This document shows, in pieces, positions 4,245-18,542 of a stretch of 45,002 nucleotides of DNA (positions are counted from its first letter, which is position 1; every line of letters starts with the position of its first letter). The DNA is from an uncultured Eudoraea sp. GTDB taxonomy: Bacteria; Bacteroidota; Bacteroidia; Flavobacteriales; Flavobacteriaceae. The stretch spans positions 1-45,002 of the forward strand of contig CAMYJF010000012.1 in the NCBI GenBank assembly GCA_947258555.1, written 5' to 3'. Below the pieces are notes generated by a model. That model made no database searches. It was not told the origin of the DNA and was given only the letters and a program-made list of their open reading frames with translations. The position numbers were made by a program, and so were the translations under genes.

Positions 4245-5932
4245 GGTTTGAAATTAAATATTTGTTCTAAAATTTTATCGGTTATCAGATAGGTAGGTTT
4301 TACTCCCGTTGTGCCCAGGCCTCCAGATGCTAAAGTACTCCCTGATTTTAAAGGGTTATCAGAGGCGTAGTACGCATAGCGCGTGATCACATCTTCTCGT
4401 ATACTTTTTCTGATCTTGGAAGCAGCTTGTATGGCTTTCTGATAATGAACCCCTTCCATTTCCAGACCAATGGCCTGCCAGGTAGATTCCTTGAAGAAAT
4501 GGAGAATATCTTTGTTTTGAAGGGATGTGCCCAACACTGTAACCATTGGTCCTTCTAGAATTTGAATTCCATTGTCCTCAAAGTCCGCTTTTGAAAATGC
4601 ATTGTCTATCGGATAGTTATCTGCAGTTCCCTCAAAAATATGTGCACTTGGGATCATTAAATCGCCTTTGCCTCCTTCTAAAATGCCCGCTTTTCCCATA
4701 ATTGATATGGAAGCTATGTTCATGAATACTGCTTCTTGGTCCTTTGGTTTGTAAGGCTTCAGTAATTCATCTATTGTCTCAAAGGCCTGTTCTCCGAAAG
4801 CATAATCCATTACCAGGATCACGGGGATATCCTCTTTGGATATAGATGCCGGCAAGTCATAACAGCAAGCATCTTTACCTAAGCTCGCAAGATCAAACAG
4901 TTGTACATCTATATTCGTTCCGGAAGCGTCATCAATGGAGATCATTCCATTTTTCCCGGCCATTTCCAAAACTTTATTCCTCAACTTATCGTTCTTTTCC
5001 TGACTCAGTGCCTTGTATATATCTAAAGTTCCATTATTGGGAAATTCTTTCGTAAGCGCCTTTCTTGCAAAGAGTGAGTTGACAACACTGTGCATATTTG
5101 CGCTGATGATATGCAAGGGTCGGTGCAGTAGTTTCTTTTTATCAAGGGTCTCTTTTATGGTATTAGCCCAACGATCTCCATGAATATGGTGACCCAAACG
5201 TTCTCTCAATAACATGCTGAAAGTAATTATACGTTTTTCTCCACCGGTTTCTTCTTCAATGGAGAGCTTGCCCAACCAATAGATTATAGAAAGAAACCTA
5301 TTTGGTTGTGATTTGCTTTTCAGTTTGTTATAGATCTCCAATACTTGATCAAAGGAACGTCCCAAAATATTGGCTGTATGAATTATGGCTACTTCCAGTT
5401 GATCTTGTGTTAATTTCTTTTGTTCCAGGGCTTCTTCCAGCTTATGCCAGTCTCTGATCGTTTTACCGGTTTCCTCGATAAGTACCCTTTCACAGATCTT
5501 TCTGGACTCAATAAACAGGAAGGTAAGGTGAGTCAATATGTCGTAAATATCAGAACGTCCCCTGGTTATCTCTATATTCATTTGCTCACTATCTATCCGA
5601 TAGCAATTTCTGCGTCTTTTAGGGGGAATAATAGGTTTAATGTGTGATCTTGTAAAGCCTTCATCAGAAGTTAAATTGATATAGCGACACTCCTCAATGC
5701 CTACTGGTAAACGATCGAGCACATACATCAAGCCTTTGAGTTCTATCTTCTCTTCTGCAATTGATCCATAAATTTCAGGGCGGAGCAATAAGAGGGCATT
5801 CCGTAAGGATTCCCCGGAAATACCCATGGGTTTATAAAATCCTCTATTTAACAAATGACGCATGGTCACATAAAGCCTTTCTATTGCGCTCGTGGATGCT
5901 CTGGCCCTGCTAATATTTACGCCTTTGCTCAT
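4241..5932 (-). CDS. Conserved 563-aa Bacteroidota protein with a phosphorylase-like C-terminal region
   Basis: I do not recognise a characterised function. It may be the family catalogued as DUF6909, but I cannot verify this. The N-terminal half (about 1-330) is helical and charged, with no signal peptide or membrane segment, so it is probably cytoplasmic. The C-terminal part (about 365-560) resembles the purine nucleoside phosphorylase/MTA-SAH nucleosidase fold. It has a hydrophobic strand VILVMDYAFG, a glycine-rich KAGILEGGKGDLMIPSAH segment, GPMVTVLGTSLQNKD, and IGLEMEG with Glu491-Met-Glu493, the motif that contacts ribose in that superfamily. The similarity is by eye and remote. The gene overlaps the Wzz-like gene by 4 bp and follows the GH3-like gene by 58 bp, so it belongs to the polysaccharide operon by position. 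It could be a nucleosidase, a nucleotide sensor or a structural relic of the fold. Confidence 0.75.
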   Translation of the reverse strand: MSKGVNISRARASTSAIERLYVTMRHLLNRGFYKPMGISGESLRNALLLLRPEIYGSIAEEKIELKGLMYVLDRLPVGIEECRYINLTSDEGFTRSHIKPIIPPKRRRNCYRIDSEQMNIEITRGRSDIYDILTHLTFLFIESRKICERVLIEETGKTIRDWHKLEEALEQKKLTQDQLEVAIIHTANILGRSFDQVLEIYNKLKSKSQPNRFLSIIYWLGKLSIEEETGGEKRIITFSMLLRERLGHHIHGDRWANTIKETLDKKKLLHRPLHIISANMHSVVNSLFARKALTKEFPNNGTLDIYKALSQEKNDKLRNKVLEMAGKNGMISIDDASGTNIDVQLFDLASLGKDACCYDLPASISKEDIPVILVMDYAFGEQAFETIDELLKPYKPKDQEAVFMNIASISIMGKAGILEGGKGDLMIPSAHIFEGTADNYPIDNAFSKADFEDNGIQILEGPMVTVLGTSLQNKDILHFFKESTWQAIGLEMEGVHYQKAIQAASKIRKSIREDVITRYAYYASDNPLKSGSTLASGGLGTTGVKPTYLITDKILEQIFNFKP

Positions 5933-7488: not shown

Positions 7489-8358
7489 CTATTTAAAATC
7501 GATATAATTCAATGGATCCAACGGTGTGCCATTAGTCCACAATTCGAAATGTAAATGGGGACCGGTAGTTAGTTCCCCGGTATTTCCAACCTCTGCGATC
7601 ACTTCGCCCCCCTGAACAAAGTCACCCTGGACTTTTAGCAGGGCTCCATTGTGTTTATAGACAGACAAGAGTCCGTTTTGATGTTCTAAAACCATCACAT
7701 ATCCGGTGTCTGAGGTCCATTCGGCAAAAATAACCGTACCATGAGTTATCGCCTTGACCGGTGTTCCCATTGGCGCCACTACATCAATGGCATAGTGCTT
7801 TTCCCGGGCATTAAAGGTCTGCGAAATAGAGCCCGATACAGGAGAAAATAAGACAAGATTAGCATTACTACCCGTTCTTTCGAAAAGATTGTATTTATCC
7901 TCCAGTGCTACTTCGGCGCGGAGCAAGGAATCTTCCCGTATAGGGCTTAGATCTACAGTAGCGGGATCAATTTTAAAGGGTGTGAACAAACTATCCCGGT
8001 TGATCTCGTTGTTTTCAATATCGCCGCGAAGCACCATCCGTACATTATCCAAATACCTATTGGTATAATTTAATACAGATACCAATGAATCAGTTTTAAA
8101 CGTCAATTCGGTTGCCTTTCTTTTTAGGGCCGTTGATGAATAGCCGGGTATATATTCCCGCAAGGGAGTGAAAGCAATAATCAATGTAGTTAACCCAATT
8201 AGTGCGATAATAAATAGCGTGCCGGTAATAAACACATTTAACCGACTTAATTTAAATGAGATCTTTTCTTCAAAAGTGTTTTCATTAAGCACCACCAATC
8301 GATACTTATGCAACAACTTACGCCTGATCTCCTTACGCCTGTTTACCTTCTTGGCCAT
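7489..8358 (-). CDS. M23 family zinc metallopeptidase, membrane-anchored
   Basis: A likely peptidoglycan endopeptidase or an activator of cell-wall amidases. The basic N-terminus is followed by one membrane helix (about 42-64), then a linker with short helical stretches and a C-terminal LytM/M23 domain. The zinc site is complete: His188 and Asp192 in HYAID, His236 in YKHNG, and His268 and His270 in GPHLHFEL. At 289 aa it matches a common flavobacterial form. It is the first gene of the minus-strand run ending in rfbD. A TATCTTTG box on the minus strand sits only 5 bp upstream of the ATG (see the promoter entry). Confidence 0.92.
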   Translation of the reverse strand: MAKKVNRRKEIRRKLLHKYRLVVLNENTFEEKISFKLSRLNVFITGTLFIIALIGLTTLIIAFTPLREYIPGYSSTALKRKATELTFKTDSLVSVLNYTNRYLDNVRMVLRGDIENNEINRDSLFTPFKIDPATVDLSPIREDSLLRAEVALEDKYNLFERTGSNANLVLFSPVSGSISQTFNAREKHYAIDVVAPMGTPVKAITHGTVIFAEWTSDTGYVMVLEHQNGLLSVYKHNGALLKVQGDFVQGGEVIAEVGNTGELTTGPHLHFELWTNGTPLDPLNYIDFK

Positions 8359-8866: not shown

Positions 8867-9637
8867 ATGTACCTATCACGTATACGAAAACAATTGCTGT
8901 TTTTGGGGGTTTTGTGGATTGCGCCTATGGCCATTGCACAAGAAATACCTCAGTCAGATCCTGTCAGCACTACCCCTCAGGCAGCTTATCTTCAACTCAC
9001 GCATAGCCAATCGCATGAACGAGTTCAATCAGGTGATTTAGTCTATTTGAACTTTTCTATTGAGAATACGAGTGATCGTATCTCCAGAGATATATCAGTA
9101 CAGATCGCCATTACTGAGGGCACTTTTATTGAAGCCTATTCCCAGAAACTAGGCACCTATGATGAATCCAGAGGTTTATGGCAATTGCCACAACTCCAGG
9201 CAAAAGAAAGTGCCACTTTGAGTTTTAGTCTATTAATGAATGCTGATCAGGATATTGATTTTCAGGCTTTTATATTTAATGTAGGAAGTATATCAATGGA
9301 AAATAAAGCATCTACGATCCAGGGGGAAATTAAGTGGGTGGAGGAAGATTGCCTGGTAGTTTTCAATGATTTTTCACAAACGGAGAAGGGCCGAAAGCGC
9401 GGGTTGTACGCCGATTGCGCAACTGAATATCCCAATAACTTTCTTCAGGTCTTTGACCGATGGGGAGCCCTTGTCTATGAAAAGGAAAATTATGATAATA
9501 GCTGGACTGGAAAACGGCATCCAAAATTTACCAAATTCGGGCGGGAGGAATTATTGGAAGGAACGTATTACTACGTCCTGAGTTTTCCTGAATCTGATAG
9601 GGCAGAGAAAACCGGATGGATCTACATCAGCGAGTAA
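8867..9637 (+). CDS. Small secreted protein with DUF11-like and degenerate type B (CHU_C-like) C-terminal domain
   Basis: The 256-aa protein starts with a signal peptide ending near AMAIAQ. Residues of about 50-150 form a beta-rich segment (GDLVYLNFSIENTSD) like DUF11/CARDB domains. The last 80 or so residues resemble the gliding-motility-associated type B sorting domain: YPNNFLQVFDRWGALVYE, a YDNSWTGK segment and a terminal GTYYYVLSF. The usual NGDGxND motif before them is absent; the corresponding place reads NDFSQTEKGRKRG. The protein is probably exported by the type IX system or retained at the surface. The ATG at 8867 was chosen because it begins the signal peptide directly; a GTG at 8846 is possible and follows an AAGGAG. 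No function can be assigned. Confidence 0.78.
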   Translation: MYLSRIRKQLLFLGVLWIAPMAIAQEIPQSDPVSTTPQAAYLQLTHSQSHERVQSGDLVYLNFSIENTSDRISRDISVQIAITEGTFIEAYSQKLGTYDESRGLWQLPQLQAKESATLSFSLLMNADQDIDFQAFIFNVGSISMENKASTIQGEIKWVEEDCLVVFNDFSQTEKGRKRGLYADCATEYPNNFLQVFDRWGALVYEKENYDNSWTGKRHPKFTKFGREELLEGTYYYVLSFPESDRAEKTGWIYISE

Positions 9638-9849
9638 CGTAGATATATTTCAAAAAAATAAGGTTTTTCTCACTTTTTCAGGTCAATGTTTATAGTCTTC
9701 AATCGATGAACTACAAGAAATCGCTGTTCACGACATAAAACACCTCTTTCACAACAAAAACTATCTGCGGGTAAAAGGAAGATATATCTTCGTCGTTAAA
9801 TGCATGAATAGTTGAATGCCAGCGCATCAACCAGAATAAACCATTATCG
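9638..9849. other. Intergenic region upstream of the PorE-like gene
   Basis: This 212-bp gap contains no gene that I can support. It holds the TTTCACAACA motif (9747-9756) that recurs upstream of two other genes, and a perfect 14-bp palindrome GAAGATATATCTTC (9778-9791). No clear TAnnTTTG box was found. Confidence 0.5.
9747..9756 (+). promoter_or_regulatory. Recurring upstream motif TTTCACAACA (copy 1)
   Basis: The same decamer occurs at 12752-12761 and 32012-32021, always intergenic and upstream of a plus-strand envelope or secretion gene. It lies about 94 bp before the PorE-like start. Function is unknown. Confidence 0.3.
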
Positions 9850-12693
9850 ATGAATATCTCCCGAAGCTTAATAAAGCAGGCGAATGTGCTAGCAGGAATG
9901 ATCTTCCTGTTTATGACATTGCACGCCAGCTATGCTGAGGCATCTGTAACCGATTTGGCTTTAGCCAATGTGGAGGTGAACAGCTTGCCCTCTTCTGCTT
10001 CTCATAAAGCTTTCGTCGTTTTAGCGAAGAAAAAAGGAATTGCTACGCGTAGTCAGCGCGGTTTTAGCAGTGCCTTTAATGGCTACTACATTATTTCCGG
10101 GGTTTTCGGTAATGCACAGAATGCATCCCGACTTTCGGGTCAGATGAAAGCGAAAGACCTGGATTCCCGGGTATTATTTCATCCGCATAAGAATTTGAAT
10201 TATGTTTCCCTGGGTTATCATGTATCCGGGATGGAGGCTGTGAATTCTGCAACTTCCAAATTAGGGGGCAAATTCAAGGATAAGGTTTGGATACTACATG
10301 TCTACGATGGAAAAACCATAGCTTTTACTCCGGCCAAGGCAGAAAACAAGAAAATAGCTCCCGCAGCAACTGCCCTATCCGCAGATCAATTCAAAAGAAG
10401 CATTAAGTCGCTCGGAATTGCTTCAAGAAGCGAATCAGGCCTCACATCAACTGCTCCCGGTTATTACATAATTGCCGGTGTTTTCGGAGAAAAGAAGAAT
10501 GCAGACCGACTCAAATTCAAATTAAGAGATCAGGGATATGCAGCTCTTTCTATGGTACATTCAGTATCTGGTCATTCCTATGTATATCTGGATCAGTTTA
10601 AATCTACTGACCGGACGCTCTCCTTTCTTAAGAGCTACACTCAAAAAGACAGAAAAAATAAAATATGGGTATTAGAAGTGCCCACACCAAAGAATTCAAT
10701 TACACCAAGGGCCCAAAAATCCAACCAAACCAAAACAGCCAAAAGTAGTAATCTGCTCAAGCCTGCCGTCTATATAGCGAAGGATCCGACAAAAACTAAG
10801 CTATTGGAGAAAGCCGATATGTATTTCAACAAGATGTGGTATGCTGAAGCTGCGGAACTTTATGAGCAAGTTCTTAATAGGAACAAGAACAATCATACGT
10901 TTGAAATCATCCAAAAAGCCGGGGATGCGCATTATTTCAATACCAATATGGAGCGGGCCTATTACTGGTACGATCAGCTCTATAGCAAGCATAAGAATGA
11001 GATGTCTGCAGAAAACATCTTTAAATATGCACATTCGCTTAAAGGAACGGGTAAATACGCCCGTGCTAAACGGCTGATGAGACTTTACAATAGAAAATTG
11101 AAGAAAGAGGATGAAGAGGTATTAGCTAATGAAAATAGCGCCACACCCAGAGAGGTGATCCTTGACAATATTCTTAGTGCAGAGGACCAGTTTACGATCA
11201 AAAATCTTGCGATAAATTCCAAGTATTCAGATTTCGGGCCTATGTACTACAATGAAAATGAGCTTGTTTTTGCTTCAGCTGCAGATTCAGCCTTTTTTGT
11301 AACCAGACGGTATAAATGGAATAATGAGCCCTTTCTGGACTTGTATGCAGCTAAGATCAATGAAGAATCAGAAGATGTCAAACAGGCTGTAAAGTTGTCT
11401 AAGAAGGTCAATACCAAGTACCACGAGGCTTCGGTTGCCTTTACACCCGATAATGAGACCATGTATTTTACCCGAAACAACTACGGTAAGAAATTAAAGC
11501 GTGATAAAGCGGGCGTTAACCACCTGAAAATCTATATGTCACAAAAGGTTAATGGTGATTGGACAGAGGCAGTTGAAGTGCCGTTTAACAGTGATGATTG
11601 GTCTACCGGACATCCAGTTTTAACCCCGGATGGGAAACAGATGTATTTTGTGTCTGACAGGCCCGGATCTTTAGGCGAATCAGACATTTTTGTGGTAGAT
11701 ATCCAGGGAGACAATTCCTTCTCTGAGCCCCGAAATCTGGGACCTGAGATCAATACGGAACGAAGAGAAATGTTCCCGTTTATCAATGATAAGAAACTCT
11801 ATTTTTCTTCCGATGGGCATGTTGGCCTAGGGGGTCTGGATGTATACGAGGTAGCATTTAACGATGATGACGGCTTTCTGGAAGTGCGTAATCTCGGCAA
11901 GCCGATTAACAGTAATAAAGACGATTTCTCATATATCGTAAATGAAGAAACACAACACGGATACTTTGCTTCAAACCGTAAAGGTGGAAAAGGAAGCGAT
12001 GATATCTATTCCTTTAAGAAAATACTTCCTGAAGAGCCTAATGAGAATGCAATTGCCGGAATAGTTACCGAAGTGGTCACAGGAGATATCCTCCCGGAGG
12101 CCCTTGTAGAACTTTTGGATGAAAATGGTCGGAAGATCAAAGAAATGGTCACCGGAGATGATGGTAGCTTCTTGTTTGAAGATCTCGACAGTAATACGAA
12201 ATACACTGTACGCGTAACTAAAGGAGATTATTTTGATGAGCAGATAGACGTGTCAACAAAAGATAACATCCTTGTTGAAACGGATCTAGCCATGAGGCGA
12301 CTAGAAGACCTGATCAGCGTTGAAGATGGTATTCGCAAGCTTAAATTGGATATGATCTTCTTTGATTTTGATAAATCTTACATCAGAACTGATGCTGCTG
12401 AAGAATTGGATAAGCTTGTTACTGTGATGAACGAATACCCAACAATGGTAATCGCCATTGAATCTCATACAGATTCCAGAGGTAAGCGAGCTTATAACAA
12501 ATACCTGTCAGAGCGAAGGGCCAGATCTACCCGAGAGTACCTGATCTTAAAAGGAATTGATCCAAAACGCATTCAGACTGCTATAGGTTATGGTGAAGAC
12601 AGGCTCCTTAACGGATGTGATGGCAGCGTGCGTTGTTCAAGTGCACAGCACCAATTGAACCGTAGATCTGAATTTATCATTGTCAATATGTAA
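9850..12693 (+). CDS. PorE-like outer-membrane protein: SPOR-like x2, TPR, PD40 propeller, carboxypeptidase-regulatory, OmpA domains
   Basis: The protein probably tethers the type IX secretion or gliding machinery to peptidoglycan. It has 947 aa with an N-terminal signal peptide. Two SPOR-like modules follow (about 76-155 and 200-280), each running from GYYII..VFG to a W-[IV]-L-[HE]-V end. Then come a TPR-like helical region (about 315-410), a PD40/WD40-like beta-propeller (about 455-725; NSKYSDFGPMYY, TPDGKQMYFVSDRPG, INDKKLYFSSDG), a carboxypeptidase-regulatory-like domain (735-805) and an OmpA C-terminal domain (about 825-945; FFDFDKSYIR, SHTDSRG, LSERRARS). TPR, propeller, regulatory and OmpA domains in that order are the known PorE arrangement; the SPOR-like pair in front is the unusual part. 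It appears to be transcribed alone. Confidence 0.88.
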   Translation: MNISRSLIKQANVLAGMIFLFMTLHASYAEASVTDLALANVEVNSLPSSASHKAFVVLAKKKGIATRSQRGFSSAFNGYYIISGVFGNAQNASRLSGQMKAKDLDSRVLFHPHKNLNYVSLGYHVSGMEAVNSATSKLGGKFKDKVWILHVYDGKTIAFTPAKAENKKIAPAATALSADQFKRSIKSLGIASRSESGLTSTAPGYYIIAGVFGEKKNADRLKFKLRDQGYAALSMVHSVSGHSYVYLDQFKSTDRTLSFLKSYTQKDRKNKIWVLEVPTPKNSITPRAQKSNQTKTAKSSNLLKPAVYIAKDPTKTKLLEKADMYFNKMWYAEAAELYEQVLNRNKNNHTFEIIQKAGDAHYFNTNMERAYYWYDQLYSKHKNEMSAENIFKYAHSLKGTGKYARAKRLMRLYNRKLKKEDEEVLANENSATPREVILDNILSAEDQFTIKNLAINSKYSDFGPMYYNENELVFASAADSAFFVTRRYKWNNEPFLDLYAAKINEESEDVKQAVKLSKKVNTKYHEASVAFTPDNETMYFTRNNYGKKLKRDKAGVNHLKIYMSQKVNGDWTEAVEVPFNSDDWSTGHPVLTPDGKQMYFVSDRPGSLGESDIFVVDIQGDNSFSEPRNLGPEINTERREMFPFINDKKLYFSSDGHVGLGGLDVYEVAFNDDDGFLEVRNLGKPINSNKDDFSYIVNEETQHGYFASNRKGGKGSDDIYSFKKILPEEPNENAIAGIVTEVVTGDILPEALVELLDENGRKIKEMVTGDDGSFLFEDLDSNTKYTVRVTKGDYFDEQIDVSTKDNILVETDLAMRRLEDLISVEDGIRKLKLDMIFFDFDKSYIRTDAAEELDKLVTVMNEYPTMVIAIESHTDSRGKRAYNKYLSERRARSTREYLILKGIDPKRIQTAIGYGEDRLLNGCDGSVRCSSAQHQLNRRSEFIIVNM

Positions 12694-12842
12694 TAAAGGC
12701 CTAATTCGAAGAATAGTAAGGAATTAGCCATTTAACAACGCCATTATCGCGTTTCACAACAAACCTATAATAAACATATACGTATCCTTCTTCGGAAAGA
12801 GTTATATAAATACCCAAAGCATTAATTAAACGAACCTTGACC
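12694..12842. other. Intergenic region before the first micro-protein
   Basis: No gene seen. It contains TTTCACAACA at 12752-12761, within the 13-mer GCGTTTCACAACA that is also found at 32009-32021. No terminator is evident for the preceding gene. Confidence 0.45.
12752..12761 (+). promoter_or_regulatory. Recurring upstream motif TTTCACAACA (copy 2)
   Basis: Lies 81 bp before the ATG of the first 56-aa gene. Together with the preceding GCG it is identical over 13 bases to the copy before the Ig-repeat type B gene at 32214. Confidence 0.3.
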
Positions 12843-13013
12843 ATGAACTACTTATTACTTATCAAAGAAATATACCAGGAAGCTTTTAGGAACCTGGGGC
12901 ATGCCATTGTAAAAAATTACTTTAGAGTATTTACCTGGTTCTGCTTTATAAGTTTCATCATTGTATTGTATGCATTCTTATTTAGAGTAGCAACCGGATT
13001 CGCATTCGATTAA
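12843..13013 (+). CDS. 56-aa membrane micro-protein, copy 1 (paralogue of the gene at 13234)
   Basis: The short frame MNYLLLIKEIYQEAFRN..., ending FRVATGFAFD, is supported by its close relationship to the next gene, which has the same length, the same order of conserved residues and the same end. It has an amphipathic charged N-terminal part (KEIYQEAFRNLGHAIVKNYFR) and one hydrophobic helix (about 30-48) bracketed by WFCF and FRVATGF, with no signal peptide. It probably sits in the inner membrane as a single-pass protein. I believe this is a small family restricted to Flavobacteriaceae (possibly DUF6747), but I cannot verify that. The function is unknown. A strong terminator follows, so it is probably expressed alone. 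Confidence 0.85.
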   Translation: MNYLLLIKEIYQEAFRNLGHAIVKNYFRVFTWFCFISFIIVLYAFLFRVATGFAFD

Positions 13014-13032
13014 ACCAAACAGCCTAAAGACA

Positions 13033-13066
13033 GAAAAGCGCCTTTTATCGGGCGCTTTTCTCGTTT
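13033..13066 (+). terminator. Rho-independent terminator after micro-protein copy 1
   Basis: A perfect 10-bp stem GAAAAGCGCC (13033-13042) / GGCGCTTTTC (13051-13060) with an 8-nt loop is followed by TCGTTTT. It separates the two micro-protein genes into independent transcripts. Confidence 0.88.
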
Positions 13067-13233
13067 TAATCCGTTCTGGTTGACTTTTGGTCTGGTTAAA
13101 ATGCGCATTTAGCAGGTGATCTGAAGGCACTTTCCCTTATAACTATTATTTATTCCAATTAGTCCAATAAATTAGAATTTCTTATGATTCAGCCCCAATT
13201 TTGTTGTGTCATAAATCCTTAAATAATCTTACC

Positions 13234-13404
13234 ATGCAGAAATTATTACTTTTTAAAGAAATCTATCTTGAAGCTTTTAAAAACTTGGGGCATATGTTAT
13301 TGACCAAGTATTTTAAATTCTTTTTTTGGTTCTGTTTTGCTATGTTATTGGTAGTTATGTATGCCTTTACATATAGAATTGCAACCGGATTTGTTTTTGA
13401 TTAA
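13234..13404 (+). CDS. 56-aa membrane micro-protein, copy 2
   Basis: MQKLLLFKEIYLEAFKN... has exactly the length of the gene at 12843 and keeps LL.KEIY.EAF.NLGH, a KYFK/NYFR basic patch, W-F-C-F, YAF and R-[IV]-ATGF-[VA]-FD. The divergent positions are mostly conservative or inside the hydrophobic helix (FAMLLVVMYAF), which points to selection on a protein. A longer frame from TTG at 13201 exists, but the ATG at 13234 matches its paralogue. The two genes most likely arose by tandem duplication. Function unknown. Confidence 0.87.
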   Translation: MQKLLLFKEIYLEAFKNLGHMLLTKYFKFFFWFCFAMLLVVMYAFTYRIATGFVFD

Positions 13405-13434
13405 AACATAAATCCTTCAACATAGAATAAAAAA

Positions 13435-13468
13435 ACCCCTTTCCTTCGAGAGGGGTATTTTGATTTTT
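13435..13468. terminator. Bidirectional terminator between convergent genes
   Basis: The stem ACCCCTTTC (13435-13443) / GAGAGGGGT (13448-13456) with a CTTC tetraloop contains one G-T wobble. It is preceded by an A-run and followed by ATTTTGATTTTT, so it can serve both the plus-strand micro-protein and the minus-strand DUF4837 gene. Confidence 0.8.
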
Positions 13469-14447
13469 ATAAGAATTCTACTGTCTTCAGAATAGCTTCC
13501 AACTCAAACATGTAGTCTCGTTTGTTGGTCGCCGGCGCAAAAGTGAAGCCTTCTATAACCAGTTTTCGATCCCGTTCAGGATCATCAATAATATAGGTTT
13601 GAAAAGGGCCTGCCATGGGATAATTCTTTACTTCCCAAATACCTCTGACCTCAATCGCTTTTTTATCCTTGAGCTTTGTAATAAATACATAGGGAGCAAA
13701 AGCCTTTTCAGTCATCATATAGGTCGTCTTATTAGGAATGTCAGGGCCCGGAATGTATTTCATTCCAATAGAATCTCTCATTTTAATGATATCGCTTACC
13801 AGAGTAGAATCATTGGTAAGACTTCCCCCTGGTATGGTATAGGCCAGTATATTCATTGTGCCTCTGGGGATTTGCCTGTCTATCCATATGAAGTTTGATT
13901 CCTGCATGCCTACTGTATAGATTGATGGTACACGCAATCGAATACCAAATTCTTCTTCAAGTGCTTTTTCCTTATTCAGGGAGCGTAAAAATCGCTTCTG
14001 TGTTTCTTCCAGCTCAAGTTTCTTATAGGAGGCTATTAACCGGTCTGCCCCGGCTTCAATGTTGGCAATTAACTGATCTTCCGTCTGCCCTTTTATTACA
14101 CCGATACGTTGAGGCGTGGCATATGTGTCTGTTTGAACTTGCGCAATATCAAGGCTGTCTAGACTTACATATAGTACGGATCTGCGATGCCTCGTCGGGC
14201 CTGTAAATACGCTTTTGGGCATATGGTCTATGGAGAAAATAGGTTCTTCCCAGGTAAGGCCCAAACTTGGGGCAGCAAACTTTTCGCGTATTTTATCCCC
14301 TACTGAACCTTCCCAAAGGCGTGTATCCATAACTACGGCCAAAGTATTGATCGCGCCTATGGATGCGGGTTTATAGTTTACTTTTTTTCCATCAAAACAA
14401 GAGACGGTGAAAAGAAGGCAAATGGAGAGAATTATAAAACGTTTCAT
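13467..14447 (-). CDS. DUF4837 family lipoprotein
   Basis: A 326-aa protein from the ATG at 14447, with a lipoprotein signal peptide MKRFIILSICLLFTVSC and Cys17 as the lipidated residue. The rest has no membrane helix. It is rich in family-type segments such as LWEGSVGDKIREKF, GTMNILAYTIPGG, and the C-terminal ending EAILKTVEFL. Homologues are widespread in Bacteroidota and have no established function. The start was set at 14447 rather than 14477 because that ATG forms an ATGA overlap with the stop of the upstream transglycosylase gene and leads straight into the signal peptide. Coupling to the transglycosylase suggests a role at the cell wall or outer membrane. Confidence 0.87.
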   Translation of the reverse strand: MKRFIILSICLLFTVSCFDGKKVNYKPASIGAINTLAVVMDTRLWEGSVGDKIREKFAAPSLGLTWEEPIFSIDHMPKSVFTGPTRHRRSVLYVSLDSLDIAQVQTDTYATPQRIGVIKGQTEDQLIANIEAGADRLIASYKKLELEETQKRFLRSLNKEKALEEEFGIRLRVPSIYTVGMQESNFIWIDRQIPRGTMNILAYTIPGGSLTNDSTLVSDIIKMRDSIGMKYIPGPDIPNKTTYMMTEKAFAPYVFITKLKDKKAIEVRGIWEVKNYPMAGPFQTYIIDDPERDRKLVIEGFTFAPATNKRDYMFELEAILKTVEFL

Positions 14448-15994
14448 AGGCCTGAAGCTGAAGTGGAACAATCGCACAGTTTTAGTTTAGTGCCTGGCAT
14501 TAATCGTGTACCACTAATACCGTTCCATTTTTTTAGTTTTTCAATTGTGACCCCCGGATATTTCTGGGCAATTGTCCACAGCGAATCCCCTTTTCGTACT
14601 GTATGAACCTTGGAGTCACTGGTAACCTGAACGCTTTTCGTTGAAGATTTAGATTTTTTAGGGGCTGAATATGCCACAGGATTTCTGGGATATATTGTGA
14701 GTCTTTGACCCACTTTTAGCATGTTACTCCTCAATCCATTCCATCGTTTAATATCACTAACACGTACACGGTAGCGCTCAGCGATCTTTCCCAGATAATC
14801 CCCGCTCCGTACGCGGTATCTGATCTTTTCCTGTGCTTTGACCATTTCTGGTAATGGGGATTCCGGATTGGTAAACTCCTTCTTAGCGAGTTCGTAAATG
14901 GCATTTTCATTGGCTACAAAAGTACCGAGTGCTGATACAGGTAAGCGAAGGTAATATTGCTTCCCTTCTATCTTTGGAATGATATTTAATTTATAAGAAG
15001 GATTTAATAGTTTGAGGTCGTCCATAGTGACCGGAACATAAGTGGCAATCTGATCAAAATTGATCATATCTTTTACCAATACCGTATCTGTTTCCTGGTA
15101 GAAACGGCCAGCATCCTTTTTTACAATGCCATGTTCTTCAGCATATTCAAAAAGGTACATTGTTGCTAGGAACGCTGGAAGATATCCGGCTGTTTCTCTA
15201 GGTAAATTTCGACGAATATTCCAATAGTTCTCATATCCCCCTGAACGCCGAATTGCTTTATTTACATTTCCTGGGCCTGAGTTATAGGCGGCTAAGGCCA
15301 GATCCCAGTCATCGAATATCTCATATAGTTTTTTAAGGTAGAGACAGGCTGCCTTAGTTGATGCCACCGGATCGTTGCGTTCATCCACATAACTTGAAAC
15401 ATCCAGATCATACATTTTGCCCGTTCCATACATAAATTGCCAAAGCCCTTTGGCTCCTACCCGGGAACGCGCCCTGGGATTCAAGGCAGATTCTATAATG
15501 GCCAGGTATTTAATTTCCAGTGGCAGATCATGTGCGTCTAGTTCTTGTTCGAACAACGGGAAGTAGAACTGACTCGCTGTGAGCATCCGTTGGATAAGCT
15601 GTTTTTTATTCTTTAAGAAGGAGTTAATTACAGATTCAAGGGAGGGGTTATACGCGATATTAAATGGAGTTTTTGAATCCAAAGCGGCCAATCTTGCCTT
15701 TAATATCTCTGTGTCTAATTTCTCAAAGCTTTCTTCTTCATCAGTGGTATTGAGAATAACCTTCTGCATTTCCTGAAACATTTCCTGTCTGGAAGCCACC
15801 TCAACCAACCACAAGCTATCCCACTTAGATGCTTGGGGCAAGTCTTCAAAGGTCTGCTCATTCTCTTCTGACCCTGTTATTGCCACTTCTGTAAGCTTCG
15901 CTTCTACCTGTACTGGCACCCCTTCCTGTCCAGTGGCGACAGATATATACACAAACACTGACAGCAGTGCTAATGTGCTGTTTTTTAAATACAT
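14444..15994 (-). CDS. Lytic transglycosylase with SLT and two LysM domains (MltD-like)
   Basis: Cleaves the glycan strands of peptidoglycan in the periplasm. The 516-aa protein has a signal peptide (cleavage near ATGQ) and an SLT domain at about 150-300 with catalytic Glu168 in IIESALNP, the GLWQFMYGTGKMYDL segment, AAYNSGPGNVNKAI and ETAGYLPAFLA. Two LysM modules follow at about 392-436 (YRVRSGDYLGKIAERY) and 463-508 (HTVRKGDSLWTIAQKY), which bind peptidoglycan. The domain order is that of MltD. The last codon overlaps the start of the DUF4837 lipoprotein gene. Confidence 0.94.
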   Translation of the reverse strand: MYLKNSTLALLSVFVYISVATGQEGVPVQVEAKLTEVAITGSEENEQTFEDLPQASKWDSLWLVEVASRQEMFQEMQKVILNTTDEEESFEKLDTEILKARLAALDSKTPFNIAYNPSLESVINSFLKNKKQLIQRMLTASQFYFPLFEQELDAHDLPLEIKYLAIIESALNPRARSRVGAKGLWQFMYGTGKMYDLDVSSYVDERNDPVASTKAACLYLKKLYEIFDDWDLALAAYNSGPGNVNKAIRRSGGYENYWNIRRNLPRETAGYLPAFLATMYLFEYAEEHGIVKKDAGRFYQETDTVLVKDMINFDQIATYVPVTMDDLKLLNPSYKLNIIPKIEGKQYYLRLPVSALGTFVANENAIYELAKKEFTNPESPLPEMVKAQEKIRYRVRSGDYLGKIAERYRVRVSDIKRWNGLRSNMLKVGQRLTIYPRNPVAYSAPKKSKSSTKSVQVTSDSKVHTVRKGDSLWTIAQKYPGVTIEKLKKWNGISGTRLMPGTKLKLCDCSTSASGL

Positions 15995-16094
15995 AAAAAT
16001 GAAATTTACTTAGTGGGGCTAACTAAAATGCAATTTTTTTAGTAATCTAAAAAATTCTTTTTGTAAAAGGGGCCAAATAATCGTTAAAACAGGC

Positions 16095-17285
16095 TTACTT
16101 AAGAATGGCCGCAATCCCTGGTAGGGTTTTTCCTTCCAGACTTTCCAGCATGGCTCCACCTCCCGTGGATACATAGCTTACCTTATCCGCAAAACCAAAC
16201 TGTTTCACGGCGGCTACTGAATCTCCCCCTCCAACTAAGGAAAAGGCGCCATATTTTGTGGCTTCTTCCACAAATGTTCCCATTGCAATGGTGCCTTGGG
16301 CAAAATTCGACATTTCAAAAACCCCAACCGGACCGTTCCACAAGATCGTTTTTGATTCCAGGATCACAGATTTAAAGTGTTCCAGGGTTTTAGGTCCGAC
16401 ATCCAATCCCTGCCAACCTGCGGGAATTTGATCAACCCCGGTCGTTTTTATCTCGGCATCGTTGCTAAATTCATCAGCTGCGAGAACATCTACCGGCAGA
16501 TGAACGGTAACGCCCTTTTCTTTAGCTTTTTCTAAAAGGCTGGTCGCCAATTCTAATTTATCAAGTTCACAGATAGAGTCGCCGATCTCCCCTCCTTGTG
16601 CCTTGATAAAAGTATAGGTCATGCCTCCGCCGATAATCAAATGATCTATGGCGTCCAATATGTTCTCAATGATCGTGATCTTGGAAGAGACTTTGGCGCC
16701 TCCTAAAATTGCAGTCACCGGTTTTTCTCCTGAAGAAAGGACCTTATCAATGGCCAGGATCTCTTTTGACAGCAGGGAACCAAAACATTTGTTATCTGGA
16801 AAAAATCTTGCAATAATAGTGGTGGAAGCATGTGCGCGGTGTGCGGTGCCGAATGCATCATTTACATAGATATCTCCCCATTCGGAAAGTTGTTTTGAAA
16901 ACTCTATCTCTCCTGATTCTTCCTCAGCATAAAATCGTAAGTTTTCCAGCAACAGGATCTCCCCGGGTTTTAGTGCAGTAACAGCTTCGCGTACTTCTTC
17001 GCCTACACAATCCGCCACGAACTTGACGTTAACTCCAATTATTTCAGAGGCCGTATCAACAATGTGTGAGAGTGATAATTTTGGGTTTACAGCACCTTTG
17101 GGCCTGCCCAGATGACTCATAAGAATAACGCTCCCGCCATCTTCAAGCACTTTAATAATGGATGGTTTAGCCGCTTCTATTCGTGTGGTGTCAGTTACTT
17201 CCTGGTCTTCATTTAAAGGAACATTGAAGTCTACGCGGATCAGGGCACGCTTATTCTCAAAATTAAAATCGTCTATTGTGATCAT
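16095..17285 (-). CDS. pgk: Phosphoglycerate kinase
   Basis: Transfers phosphate from 1,3-bisphosphoglycerate to ADP in glycolysis. At 396 aa from the ATG at 17285 it is full length; an upstream in-frame start would add 16 residues that are not part of the family. Signatures are RVDFNVPL near the N-terminus, [10 protein letters not shown], the GGAKVSSKI segment, WNGPVGVFE and the C-terminal GGGDSVAAV nucleotide-binding loop. A minus-strand TACATTTG box lies 21 bp upstream of the ATG. It is followed after 100 bp by the transglycosylase gene. Confidence 0.98.
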
Positions 17286-17306
17286 GTATTGGATTTTATA
17301 GCTCGG

Positions 17307-17314
17307 CAAATGTA
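17307..17314 (-). promoter_or_regulatory. Putative -7 box (TACATTTG) for pgk
   Basis: On the minus strand this reads TACATTTG, matching TAnnTTTG, 21 bp before the chosen pgk ATG. Its position supports that start rather than the longer one, which would begin upstream of the box. A proper -33 element is not evident. Confidence 0.5.
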
Positions 17315-17378
17315 TGAATTCAACATATGTCATAAAAACAGCTCCATCAATATTTCCGGAAGATGTCTTTCAAAGTTT

Positions 17379-17386
17379 TATATTTG
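17379..17386 (+). promoter_or_regulatory. Putative -7 box (TATATTTG) for holB
   Basis: TATATTTG matches TAnnTTTG and ends 4 bp before the holB ATG, so transcription would begin at or next to the start codon. No good -33 TTG was found. Confidence 0.4.
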
Positions 17387-17390
17387 AGGC

Positions 17391-18542
17391 ATGCTGTTTG
17401 AGGATATTTTAGGGCTTACCCATATTAAGCATCATCTGACTTCAAGTGCCGATGCGGGGCGCATTCCACATGCACAATTGTTTATAGGTCCGGAAGGCAG
17501 CGGTACACTTGCAACTGCATTGGCATATGCTCGCTATTTGCTCTGCAATAATTCCCAGGGAGAAAACATTAATGGGGACGAAGCATGCAATATTAAATGT
17601 GCATCTTTTACACATCCCGACCTTCATTTTGTATTCCCGGTTGCGACTTCTGATAAGGTCAAGAGTCATCCTGTAAGTGATCATTATATAGGGGAATGGC
17701 GAAAATTTCTCAAAGAGCAGCCTTATGGTAATCTATTTGACTGGTACCGTCTTATTGGTATTGAAAAAAAGCAAGGCCAAATAGGCGTTGATGAAGCCCA
17801 GGATATCAACAAAAAGTTGTCGCTGAAGGCATATGAAGGAGGCTATAAGGTCATGATCATCTGGATGGCCGAAATGATGAATACTTCTTCGGCCAATAAG
17901 TTGCTAAAATTGATAGAAGAACCCCCGGCAAAGACCATAATGCTCCTTTTGGTGGAAGATGAAGAAAAGATCATGGAGACCATATACTCCCGTTGTCAGG
18001 TTATTCATTTTCCACCGCTTTCAGAAGCGGTTATCGCTCAGGCATTGAGTGAACATGGGTTATCGCGTGAAGAGGCAATGCAAGTAGCACAAGAAGCTAA
18101 TGGCAATTTTAATAAAGCCATGGACCTAATGAATAAGGATTCCGAAGAACTGGTCTTTGAAAAGTGGTTTGTTCAATGGGTCCGCAGTGCCTTTAAAGCA
18201 AAGAAGAATAAAGGGGCGATCCATGAACTCATTTTGTGGAGCGAAGAAGTGGCCAGAACAGGGAGAGAAACTCAGAAAAAATTTGTGATGTATTGTCTGG
18301 CGCTGATCCGTCAGGCCATGTTGGTTCATTATGGTGCAAATGAATTGGCGTATATGCAGATCCATGTCGATGGATTTCAATTAAATAATTTTGCCCCCTT
18401 TATCCATGAACAAAATCTGCTGGAGATTGTTGACGCTTTTGAAGAAGCCCATTACCACATTGAGCGAAACGGTAATTCGAAAATAATTTGGACAGATCTT
18501 TCCATTCAACTAACCCGACTTTTACATAAAAAAGCTGCCTAG
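17391..18542 (+). CDS. holB: DNA polymerase III delta' subunit (clamp loader)
   Basis: A component of the clamp-loader complex that places the sliding clamp on DNA. The 383-aa AAA+ protein starts MLFEDILGL and has IPHAQLFIGPEGSGTLATALAYARYLLC. The Walker A position reads GPEGSGT without the lysine of GKT, as expected for a delta' subunit that does not hydrolyse ATP. Cysteines before and after the loop (LLCNN, EACNIKC) fit the zinc module. IGVDEAQDINKKLSLKAYEGGYKV, LLKLIEEPP and the sensor-type SRCQ are typical. It is divergent from pgk, and the DoxX-like gene follows after 21 bp. Confidence 0.93.
   Translation: MLFEDILGLTHIKHHLTSSADAGRIPHAQLFIGPEGSGTLATALAYARYLLCNNSQGENINGDEACNIKCASFTHPDLHFVFPVATSDKVKSHPVSDHYIGEWRKFLKEQPYGNLFDWYRLIGIEKKQGQIGVDEAQDINKKLSLKAYEGGYKVMIIWMAEMMNTSSANKLLKLIEEPPAKTIMLLLVEDEEKIMETIYSRCQVIHFPPLSEAVIAQALSEHGLSREEAMQVAQEANGNFNKAMDLMNKDSEELVFEKWFVQWVRSAFKAKKNKGAIHELILWSEEVARTGRETQKKFVMYCLALIRQAMLVHYGANELAYMQIHVDGFQLNNFAPFIHEQNLLEIVDAFEEAHYHIERNGNSKIIWTDLSIQLTRLLHKKAA

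Follow-up and report, generated by a model that had tools for sequence, protein, structure and literature searches.

The analysed window, i.e. the complete stretch of 45,002 nucleotides from an uncultured Eudoraea sp., contains two adjacent frames of 56 codons each, as already recognised in the first-pass annotation of this DNA. Copy A starts with an ATG at position 12843 and ends with a stop codon at 13011-13013, and copy B starts with an ATG at 13234 and ends with a stop codon at 13402-13404. The features of the locus are the following:

12756..12806, + strand: element upstream of copy A, ACAACAAA-N-AYAC-N-GTTRTA, possibly a promoter or operator; sole match in the window's genome
12843..13013, + strand: copy A, ORF for a 56-aa DUF6747 protein, MNYLLLIKEIYQEAF...RVATGFAFD; PF20532 E 2.6e-26; dN/dS 0.064-0.137 between three congeneric genomes
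13032..13061, + strand: intrinsic-terminator-like hairpin after copy A, at a similar position in relatives
13234..13404, + strand: copy B, ORF for a 56-aa DUF6747 protein, MQKLLLFKEIYLEAF...RIATGFVFD; PF20532 E 1.1e-25; dN/dS 0.062-0.119 between three congeneric genomes
13435..13456, + strand: terminator-like hairpin after copy B, at a similar position in relatives and overlapped by a minus-strand match

Both deduced proteins, which are 59% identical, matched the Pfam family of unknown function DUF6747 (PF20532) with 92.3 bits for A and 90.2 bits for B at a cut-off of 27 bits, residues 1-55 being aligned to profile positions 1-55 of 55 and hence to the full model above the gathering cut-off. 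Based on scores so far above the cut-off, A and B are not regarded as chance ORFs. The shared sequence words and the divergence inside the hydrophobic stretch had been described correctly beforehand; the idea of an unlisted, novel family was rejected, since the family is already part of Pfam. DUF6747 is represented here by stand-alone proteins and not by a domain of a larger protein, A and B having 56 aa and 262 distinct full-length relatives 55-58 aa. No NCBIfam model matched A or B at E <= 1, PHROGs and PADLOC returned chance-level matches only for the two proteins, and the PDB sequence search gave just two matches (E 0.48 and 0.84) and no solved relative. Moreover, Rfam had no match within positions 9000-18000 of the window, and literature text searches found no paper naming DUF6747 or PF20532.

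The gene upstream of copy A (window positions 9850-12693) encodes an OmpA-type protein with two N-terminal SPOR matches, PD40 repeats and a carboxypeptidase-regulatory-like domain. It had been addressed as PorE-like, and this wording appears appropriate, but the protein stays below the NCBIfam cut-offs of both T9SS_PorE (NF052230; 347 bits, cut-off 600) and CHU_0125_OmpA (424 bits, cut-off 620).

Among the fetched loci, 423 DUF6747 hits were obtained, of which 421 start with M and reach at least 50 aa; two partial hits (L055, L306) were dropped, and a 23-codon remnant in L063 was under the threshold used. Removal of repeats left 280 entries, corresponding to 262 distinct proteins, of 55 aa (49 entries), 56 aa (216), 57 aa (3) or 58 aa (12). 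In an alignment of 121 rows and 56 columns, residues M1, Y11, F15, A44, R48 and G52 were invariant. Mean column entropy amounted to 0.82 bits at residues 43-55, the lowest value among the 13-column windows examined, compared with 1.52 bits at residues 2-28 and 1.65 bits at residues 29-42. The best conserved part of DUF6747 is its tail YAFxFRxxTGFxF, the C-terminal membrane-exit segment.

AlphaFold2 predicted one helix spanning residues 3-51 (mean pLDDT 84.7, pTM 0.46), in agreement with the single helix proposed earlier, and mean hydropathy peaked at 2.2 at residues 29-47. By hydropathy and AlphaFold2 prediction, DUF6747 fits the criterion of one transmembrane helix and fewer than ~60 aa used for small membrane regulators. 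Mean net charge was +2.75 over the first 30 residues and +0.26 over the last ten; on account of this asymmetry, an N-in/C-out topology is likely by the positive-inside rule of thumb, and the tail is predicted to face outward. The first-pass annotation had placed the conservation in a cytosolic-type half, which does not hold, since the best conserved residues 43-55 are placed outside by the same rule. Co-variation between the helix halves (MI-APC, Neff 79) gave mixed pairs, in which a hairpin pattern was not seen, and was not used. The N-terminal half is amphipathic, with a mean hydrophobic moment of 0.30-0.45 in 18-residue windows starting at positions 1-17. Together with its basic residues and the several differently placed copies, this would suit sensors of envelope or lipid stress that probe the inner leaflet by means of a basic amphipathic helix at the N-terminus. 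Such a role is considered quite improbable, given that the tail and not the amphipathic half is best conserved and that no stress-linked neighbour is common to the loci.

Ratios of dN/dS were calculated by the Nei-Gojobori method, and only pairs whose synonymous difference was between 0 and 0.6 entered the pooled values. In addition to the ranges listed above for A and B, a value of 0.146 was obtained for copy D from one congener pair. Pooled values were 0.098 (A) and 0.039 (B) in Eudoraea, 0.068 (A) and 0.179 (B) in Maribacter and 0.057 for single copies in Flagellimonas/Allomuricauda; comparison of A with B within the window's genome resulted in 0.247 at a dS of 1.26. DUF6747 orthologues are under strong purifying selection (0.039-0.179), nowhere near a dN/dS of 1, and the earlier claim of selection on the protein was confirmed. 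In Eudoraea adriatica (L063, from position 8308), B is reduced to its last codons, those of the tail, next to an intact A; B was evidently dispensable at least once, in this species. This remnant is the point in favour of regarding the frames as spurious ORFs or decaying duplicates, a reading of negligible probability that is refuted by the dN/dS values and further opposed by the rigid length and the curated Pfam family.

The genome containing the window (2.73 Mb, 104 contigs) harbours four DUF6747 copies, namely A, B, a C-type copy on contig 65 and a D-type copy on contig 3. The family is conserved well beyond this strain: in a Flavobacteriaceae sample, DUF6747 was detected in 80 of 397 genomes and 49 of 237 genera, the maximum being six copies in one genome, and all three genomes examined for the genus carry it. 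The remaining 317 genomes were devoid of DUF6747. Named carriers include Eudoraea, Maribacter, Allomuricauda/Flagellimonas, Muriicola, Robiginitalea, Poritiphilus and Ulvibacterium. In a sample covering the phylum, seven of 395 genomes gave a match, six of them within Flavobacteriaceae; the seventh (G301) was taken as spurious, since its match (E 7.3e-4) was below the cut-off and contained two internal stops. A viral origin was likewise rejected, as no relative was present among 115 pattern matches in viral contigs.

The genomic addresses of the paralogues were evaluated for a set of named loci, i.e. the best 80 of 296 stretches retrieved with a query led by copy A, which favours the A type. 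In 74 of these 80 loci, the gene or gene pair is located strictly between the OmpA-type gene (+) and a convergent DUF4837 gene (-), so that a stable synteny next to the PorE-like gene, suggested earlier as a check, is supported; of the other six, three had one flanking match only and three were at other sites. An intact A/B pair was present in 52 of the 80 loci, with starts 377-694 nt apart (median 432.5), and the intact second copy was missing in 28. The addresses of other paralogues, next to gpmI or dinB, are as stable as the adjacency of A/B to the PorE-like gene. Within the stretches examined, 27 of 30 copies assigned to type D by sequence have an M48 peptidase gene upstream and gpmI downstream, two have gpmI only and one has neither. 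Of the C-like entries, 63 lie neither at the OmpA nor at the gpmI site; 26 of these are within ~5 kb of dinB or dnaE, many of them upstream and in line, and 37 are found elsewhere. No neighbour gene is common to the different DUF6747 loci. At unusual sites in L234, L250, L258 and L263, C-like copies were noticed by eye near a gene resembling a LytTR-type response regulator. Furthermore, L263 contains tandem copies (at 5053 and 5291) with identical proteins and starts 238 nt apart, which probably represent a recent duplication.

Corresponding neighbourhoods were also inspected in 20 non-carriers. There, gpmI was found in 19, and within the 1.5 kb examined an M48 gene was present in four of these 19. 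Three loci of non-carriers (L172, L178, L180) show the order M48, ankyrin-type gene, gpmI; DUF6747 is absent, and 94-183 nt separate the M48 match from the ankyrin match. Accordingly, the D copy resembles a compact unit that was either acquired by an older gene neighbourhood or lost from it. DUF4837 was also present in 19 of the 20 non-carriers, and none of these 19 had an OmpA-type match within the 1.5 kb examined, so the A/B neighbourhood itself differs in non-carriers. Divergent DUF6747 homologues beside gpmI or DUF4837 of non-carriers were searched for in 39 loci; none was convincing (best E 0.035).

On a GpmI tree with 30 carrier rows, a few of which are repeat fetches of the same genome, and 19 non-carrier rows, the carrier state needs three changes compared with ~15 in shuffles. 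According to this tree, carriers appear to form a near-clade with few exceptions, which may reflect transfers of gpmI. In L142, L251 and L254, carrier GpmI grouped with non-carrier GpmI, suggesting transfer or replacement of gpmI beside the D copy. In the tree of DUF6747 members, all 23 gpmI-context rows are on one branch (one change, SH-aLRT 100). First copies need nine changes (51 rows; ~46 when shuffled) and second copies 11 (55 rows; ~49 when shuffled), in a tree whose 56 columns leave most forks unresolved.

Regarding transcription, a terminator scan around A and B yielded four sites, some of them overlapping, in 1 kb on both strands, compared with 0.5 +/- 0.8 expected. The view that each copy possesses its own terminator is supported by the hairpins at 13032-13061 and 13435-13456 and by relatives, in which a terminator-like hairpin within 110 nt of the stop follows 49 of 51 first and 49 of 55 second copies. 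The same is true for 26 of 33 single and 23 of 23 gpmI-context copies, the rate in mononucleotide shuffles being 2-3% for first and second copies and 2-4% over all four groups. Corresponding values were only 1/17 for dinB-context copies (shuffles 2%) and 11/23 for others (shuffles 10%). With terminators behind A and B, nothing larger would be read after them, and the hairpin behind B may also serve the convergent DUF4837 gene, given the overlapping minus-strand match. Between the OmpA-type gene and copy A, a terminator-like site was not found, and read-through from the PorE-like gene into A is therefore possible. Small membrane regulators are commonly, though not universally, encoded in one operon with their target.

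Upstream of first copies, an element with the consensus parts TTCACAACAAA, AATAC and AGTTATATA, in this order, was detected, which is 49-51 nt long in all cases and ends 17-43 nt before the ATG. It occurs in 48 of 73 first-copy regions, in none of 68 second-copy and 29 gpmI-type regions, in one of 106 C-like regions and in no mononucleotide shuffle; the lone C-like carrier stems from G130, where it occupies the OmpA/DUF4837 site as a single copy (L017, L149). A strict genome-wide scan of 20 carriers gave exact matches in 15 genomes and none in five. Fifteen of the 16 matches precede A or a single copy at the same site, and the sixteenth (G494, contig 65) lies elsewhere; the backwards control pattern had one match across the 20 genomes. 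The element may represent A's own promoter or operator. An ECF-type reading was considered and is not claimed, as the G of the CGT box given in SM6 of PMC9723704 is found there in only 41%.

Promoters recognised by flavobacterial sigma-A contain a TAnnTTTG -7 box, as described in PMC6847099 and PMC9723704. The pattern TAHHTTTG was not enriched before first (2 seen, 1.0 expected), second (3 and 2.9) and gpmI-type copies (0 and 1.7) and weakly enriched before C-like copies (8 and 3.4). TTTG alone, 20-60 nt before the start, precedes 45 of 55 second and 9 of 50 first copies, second copies often having it 30-34 nt upstream. In antisense orientation, TAHHTTTG was seen 7 times (14.6 expected) for first, 14 (11.2) for second, 7 (14.9) for C-like and 5 (4.2) for gpmI-type copies, i.e. 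there was no clear excess. The latter counts bear on the assumption that these small, hydrophobic, multi-copy proteins, encoded in tandem units followed by terminators, are type I toxins with antisense-RNA antitoxins. This is highly improbable in view of the strong purifying selection and of a synteny that is fixed across many genera. With 74 of the 80 best named loci showing one and the same location, the distribution is not the sporadic, mobile one that is usual, though not defining, for type I systems. In addition, the only phage-family match was at chance level (E 0.018), and there was no relative in viral contigs.

SidA, DidA and TisB represent families of DNA-damage-induced membrane proteins, and the 26 C-like entries near dinB/dnaE invite the idea that DUF6747 proteins are of this sort. 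Yet two GGAAATATTCC-like palindromes were noticed by eye before dinB-dnaE in L111, L136, L143, L148, L214, L224, L232, L233, L241, L244 and L247, positioned between the C unit and dinB in 11 of the 11 loci whose gap was inspected, and some gaps also hold a terminator. Hence dinB is apparently transcribed from a regulated promoter of its own, and membership of the C copies in a dinB operon was rejected. Since the dinB/dnaE context is, moreover, not shared by first, second and gpmI-type copies, a DNA-damage function is very unlikely. The palindromes themselves might act as an operator that controls the genes for error-prone polymerases in this clade.

As terminators are often missing after C-like copies, the sequence behind them was inspected, which revealed short hydrophobic ORFs beginning within ~90 nt of the C-copy stop. 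A rule that demands an ATG, 26-60 aa, hydrophobicity and a position not past a detected terminator flagged 25 of the 106 C-like copies. One of the flagged ORFs is a second DUF6747 gene, leaving 24 ORFs of 29-49 aa that start 5-93 nt after the stop, 18 of them with a terminator behind. The rule flagged none of 75 first, 67 second and 30 gpmI-type copies (0/172). A looser rule without the terminator condition flagged 2/51, 1/54, 3/33 and 3/23 of the copies located at the OmpA or gpmI site, apparently on account of chance ORFs. Two recognisable families emerged, P2 (~MKRKFDLIDLFVVLGCLYISFMIFLI) and P1 (~SFKRLxEGVVxDYxRIGIIxY...FLYVYLN), and several of the 24 ORFs belong to neither. A Pfam search with ten examples gave a best E of 0.066, i.e. 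chance level. P1 and P2 are under purifying selection, with a pooled dN/dS of 0.145 over five related-genome pairs (four P2, one P1), some of which include a few pre-ATG codons.

P2 ORFs were recorded in L030, L214, L233, L249, L265, L270, L290, L291, L314, L315, L316, L319 and L351, and P1 ORFs in L120, L224, L232, L233, L244, L249, L270 and L304. They encode predicted single-helix proteins of 32-49 aa, in line with the C copy and mostly with a terminator behind. In L233, L249 and L270, which have two C copies each, one copy is accompanied by P1 and the other by P2; tandem C loci such as L247 differ. Both profiles were used to scan 50 genomes, namely 25 carriers chosen for already-read loci and 25 non-carriers. 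For P2, 13 strong matches (E <= 1e-12) were found in 12 carriers, all just downstream of a C copy, with weak hits elsewhere in a carrier (6.9e-4) and a non-carrier (0.008). P1 matched seven times in seven carriers, in each case behind a C copy, and never in non-carriers. The profiles themselves had been built from all seven of the matching P1 ORFs and nine of the 13 P2 ones, and the four remaining P2 loci were already known from the ORF screens; the new information is therefore the absence of P1 and P2 elsewhere in those genomes. Neither family was found in the window's genome. Profile comparison detected no significant similarity of P1 and P2 to DUF6747 or to each other, and an interpretation of P1 as a shortened DUF6747, based on a Y-17-Y spacing noticed by eye, was not supported (probability 7.5%).

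These findings bear on the possibility that DUF6747 proteins are themselves the complex, A assembling with B and C with the downstream ORF as homo- or hetero-oligomers, e.g. as a small channel or a membrane-remodelling assembly. The A/B pair retained in 52 named loci, the confinement of partner ORFs to C-like copies (24/106 compared with 0/172), the terminators behind 18 of them, their constraint and the placement of all strong P2 and all P1 matches just behind C copies are consistent with such self-assembly. It is nevertheless judged rather unlikely, because 28 named loci have no intact second copy, 82 of the 106 C-like copies have no flagged partner, P1 and P2 are both missing from the window's genome, and neither shows significant profile similarity to DUF6747. 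A bolder version, with a low probability, would see DUF6747 as the constant half of a clade-specific paired-microprotein system, in which A/B and C plus P1 or P2 are versions of one two-part assembly of an outward-tail DUF6747 protein and a second tiny single-helix protein, P1 and P2 constituting two families outside Pfam.

Based on the evidence compiled, A and B are tentatively interpreted as small accessory or regulatory subunits whose outward tail would dock on a larger inner-membrane protein, although the probability of this reading stays somewhat short of an even chance; self-assembly is its main rival. Within this preferred subunit reading, A and B would be two old DUF6747 paralogues acting as single-pass inner-membrane microproteins. 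Their N-terminal helix, basic and comprising residues 3 to ~28, would lie on the cytosolic side, the helix would cross the membrane at ~29-50, and the conserved YAFxFRxxTGFxF end would be exposed at the outer leaflet or just outside, where it would dock on a larger inner-membrane protein present throughout the clade. Paralogues A, B, C and D would then provide subunits of one kind that are expressed from separate promoters and under different programmes, differing mainly in the timing of their production, and A would probably be controlled by its own upstream element. In favour of the subunit reading are the PF20532 match, length rigidity, dN/dS values, the one helix, charge bias, tail conservation, synteny, the gpmI branch and the A element. 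The loci without a common neighbour, the possible reading of A from the OmpA-type gene and the loss of B in Eudoraea adriatica speak against it. A further counterpoint is that 317 of 397 Flavobacteriaceae genomes do not encode DUF6747, so that the docking partner, were it ancient, would have to function in its absence there. According to PMC11539335, well-characterised bacterial small membrane proteins mainly regulate within larger complexes or act on single larger membrane proteins. A regulator or assembly factor of a membrane complex, as proposed in the first-pass annotation, accordingly remains the best guess for A and B.

In summary, DUF6747 comprises tiny predicted membrane proteins under strong selection, encoded by as many as six genes per genome, and is characteristic of a large group of marine flavobacteria including Maribacter, Muricauda relatives, Eudoraea, Robiginitalea and others. 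The locus-tied paralogues, the A element and the second microproteins behind some C copies offer concrete handles on the function of DUF6747. At the family level, A and B do not differ from PF20532, which they match over the full length. Beyond the Pfam entry, the present analysis added the locus-tied paralogues, the A element and the ORFs downstream of C copies; for a family known in name only, these additions make the function testable.

Type I toxins such as Ldr and Ibs are small and hydrophobic, occur in several tandem copies and are shorter than DUF6747. DUF6747 resembles them in being small, hydrophobic and arranged in tandem, but differs by its fixed loci, greater length, strong constraint and lack of a clear antisense promoter signal. 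MgrB, AcrZ, KdpF and MgtS, as presented in PMC11539335, are likened to DUF6747 by size and location, with no sequence relation claimed: all are very small, DUF6747 is predicted to be located in the membrane as well and, unlike these proteins, it is present in up to six copies per genome.
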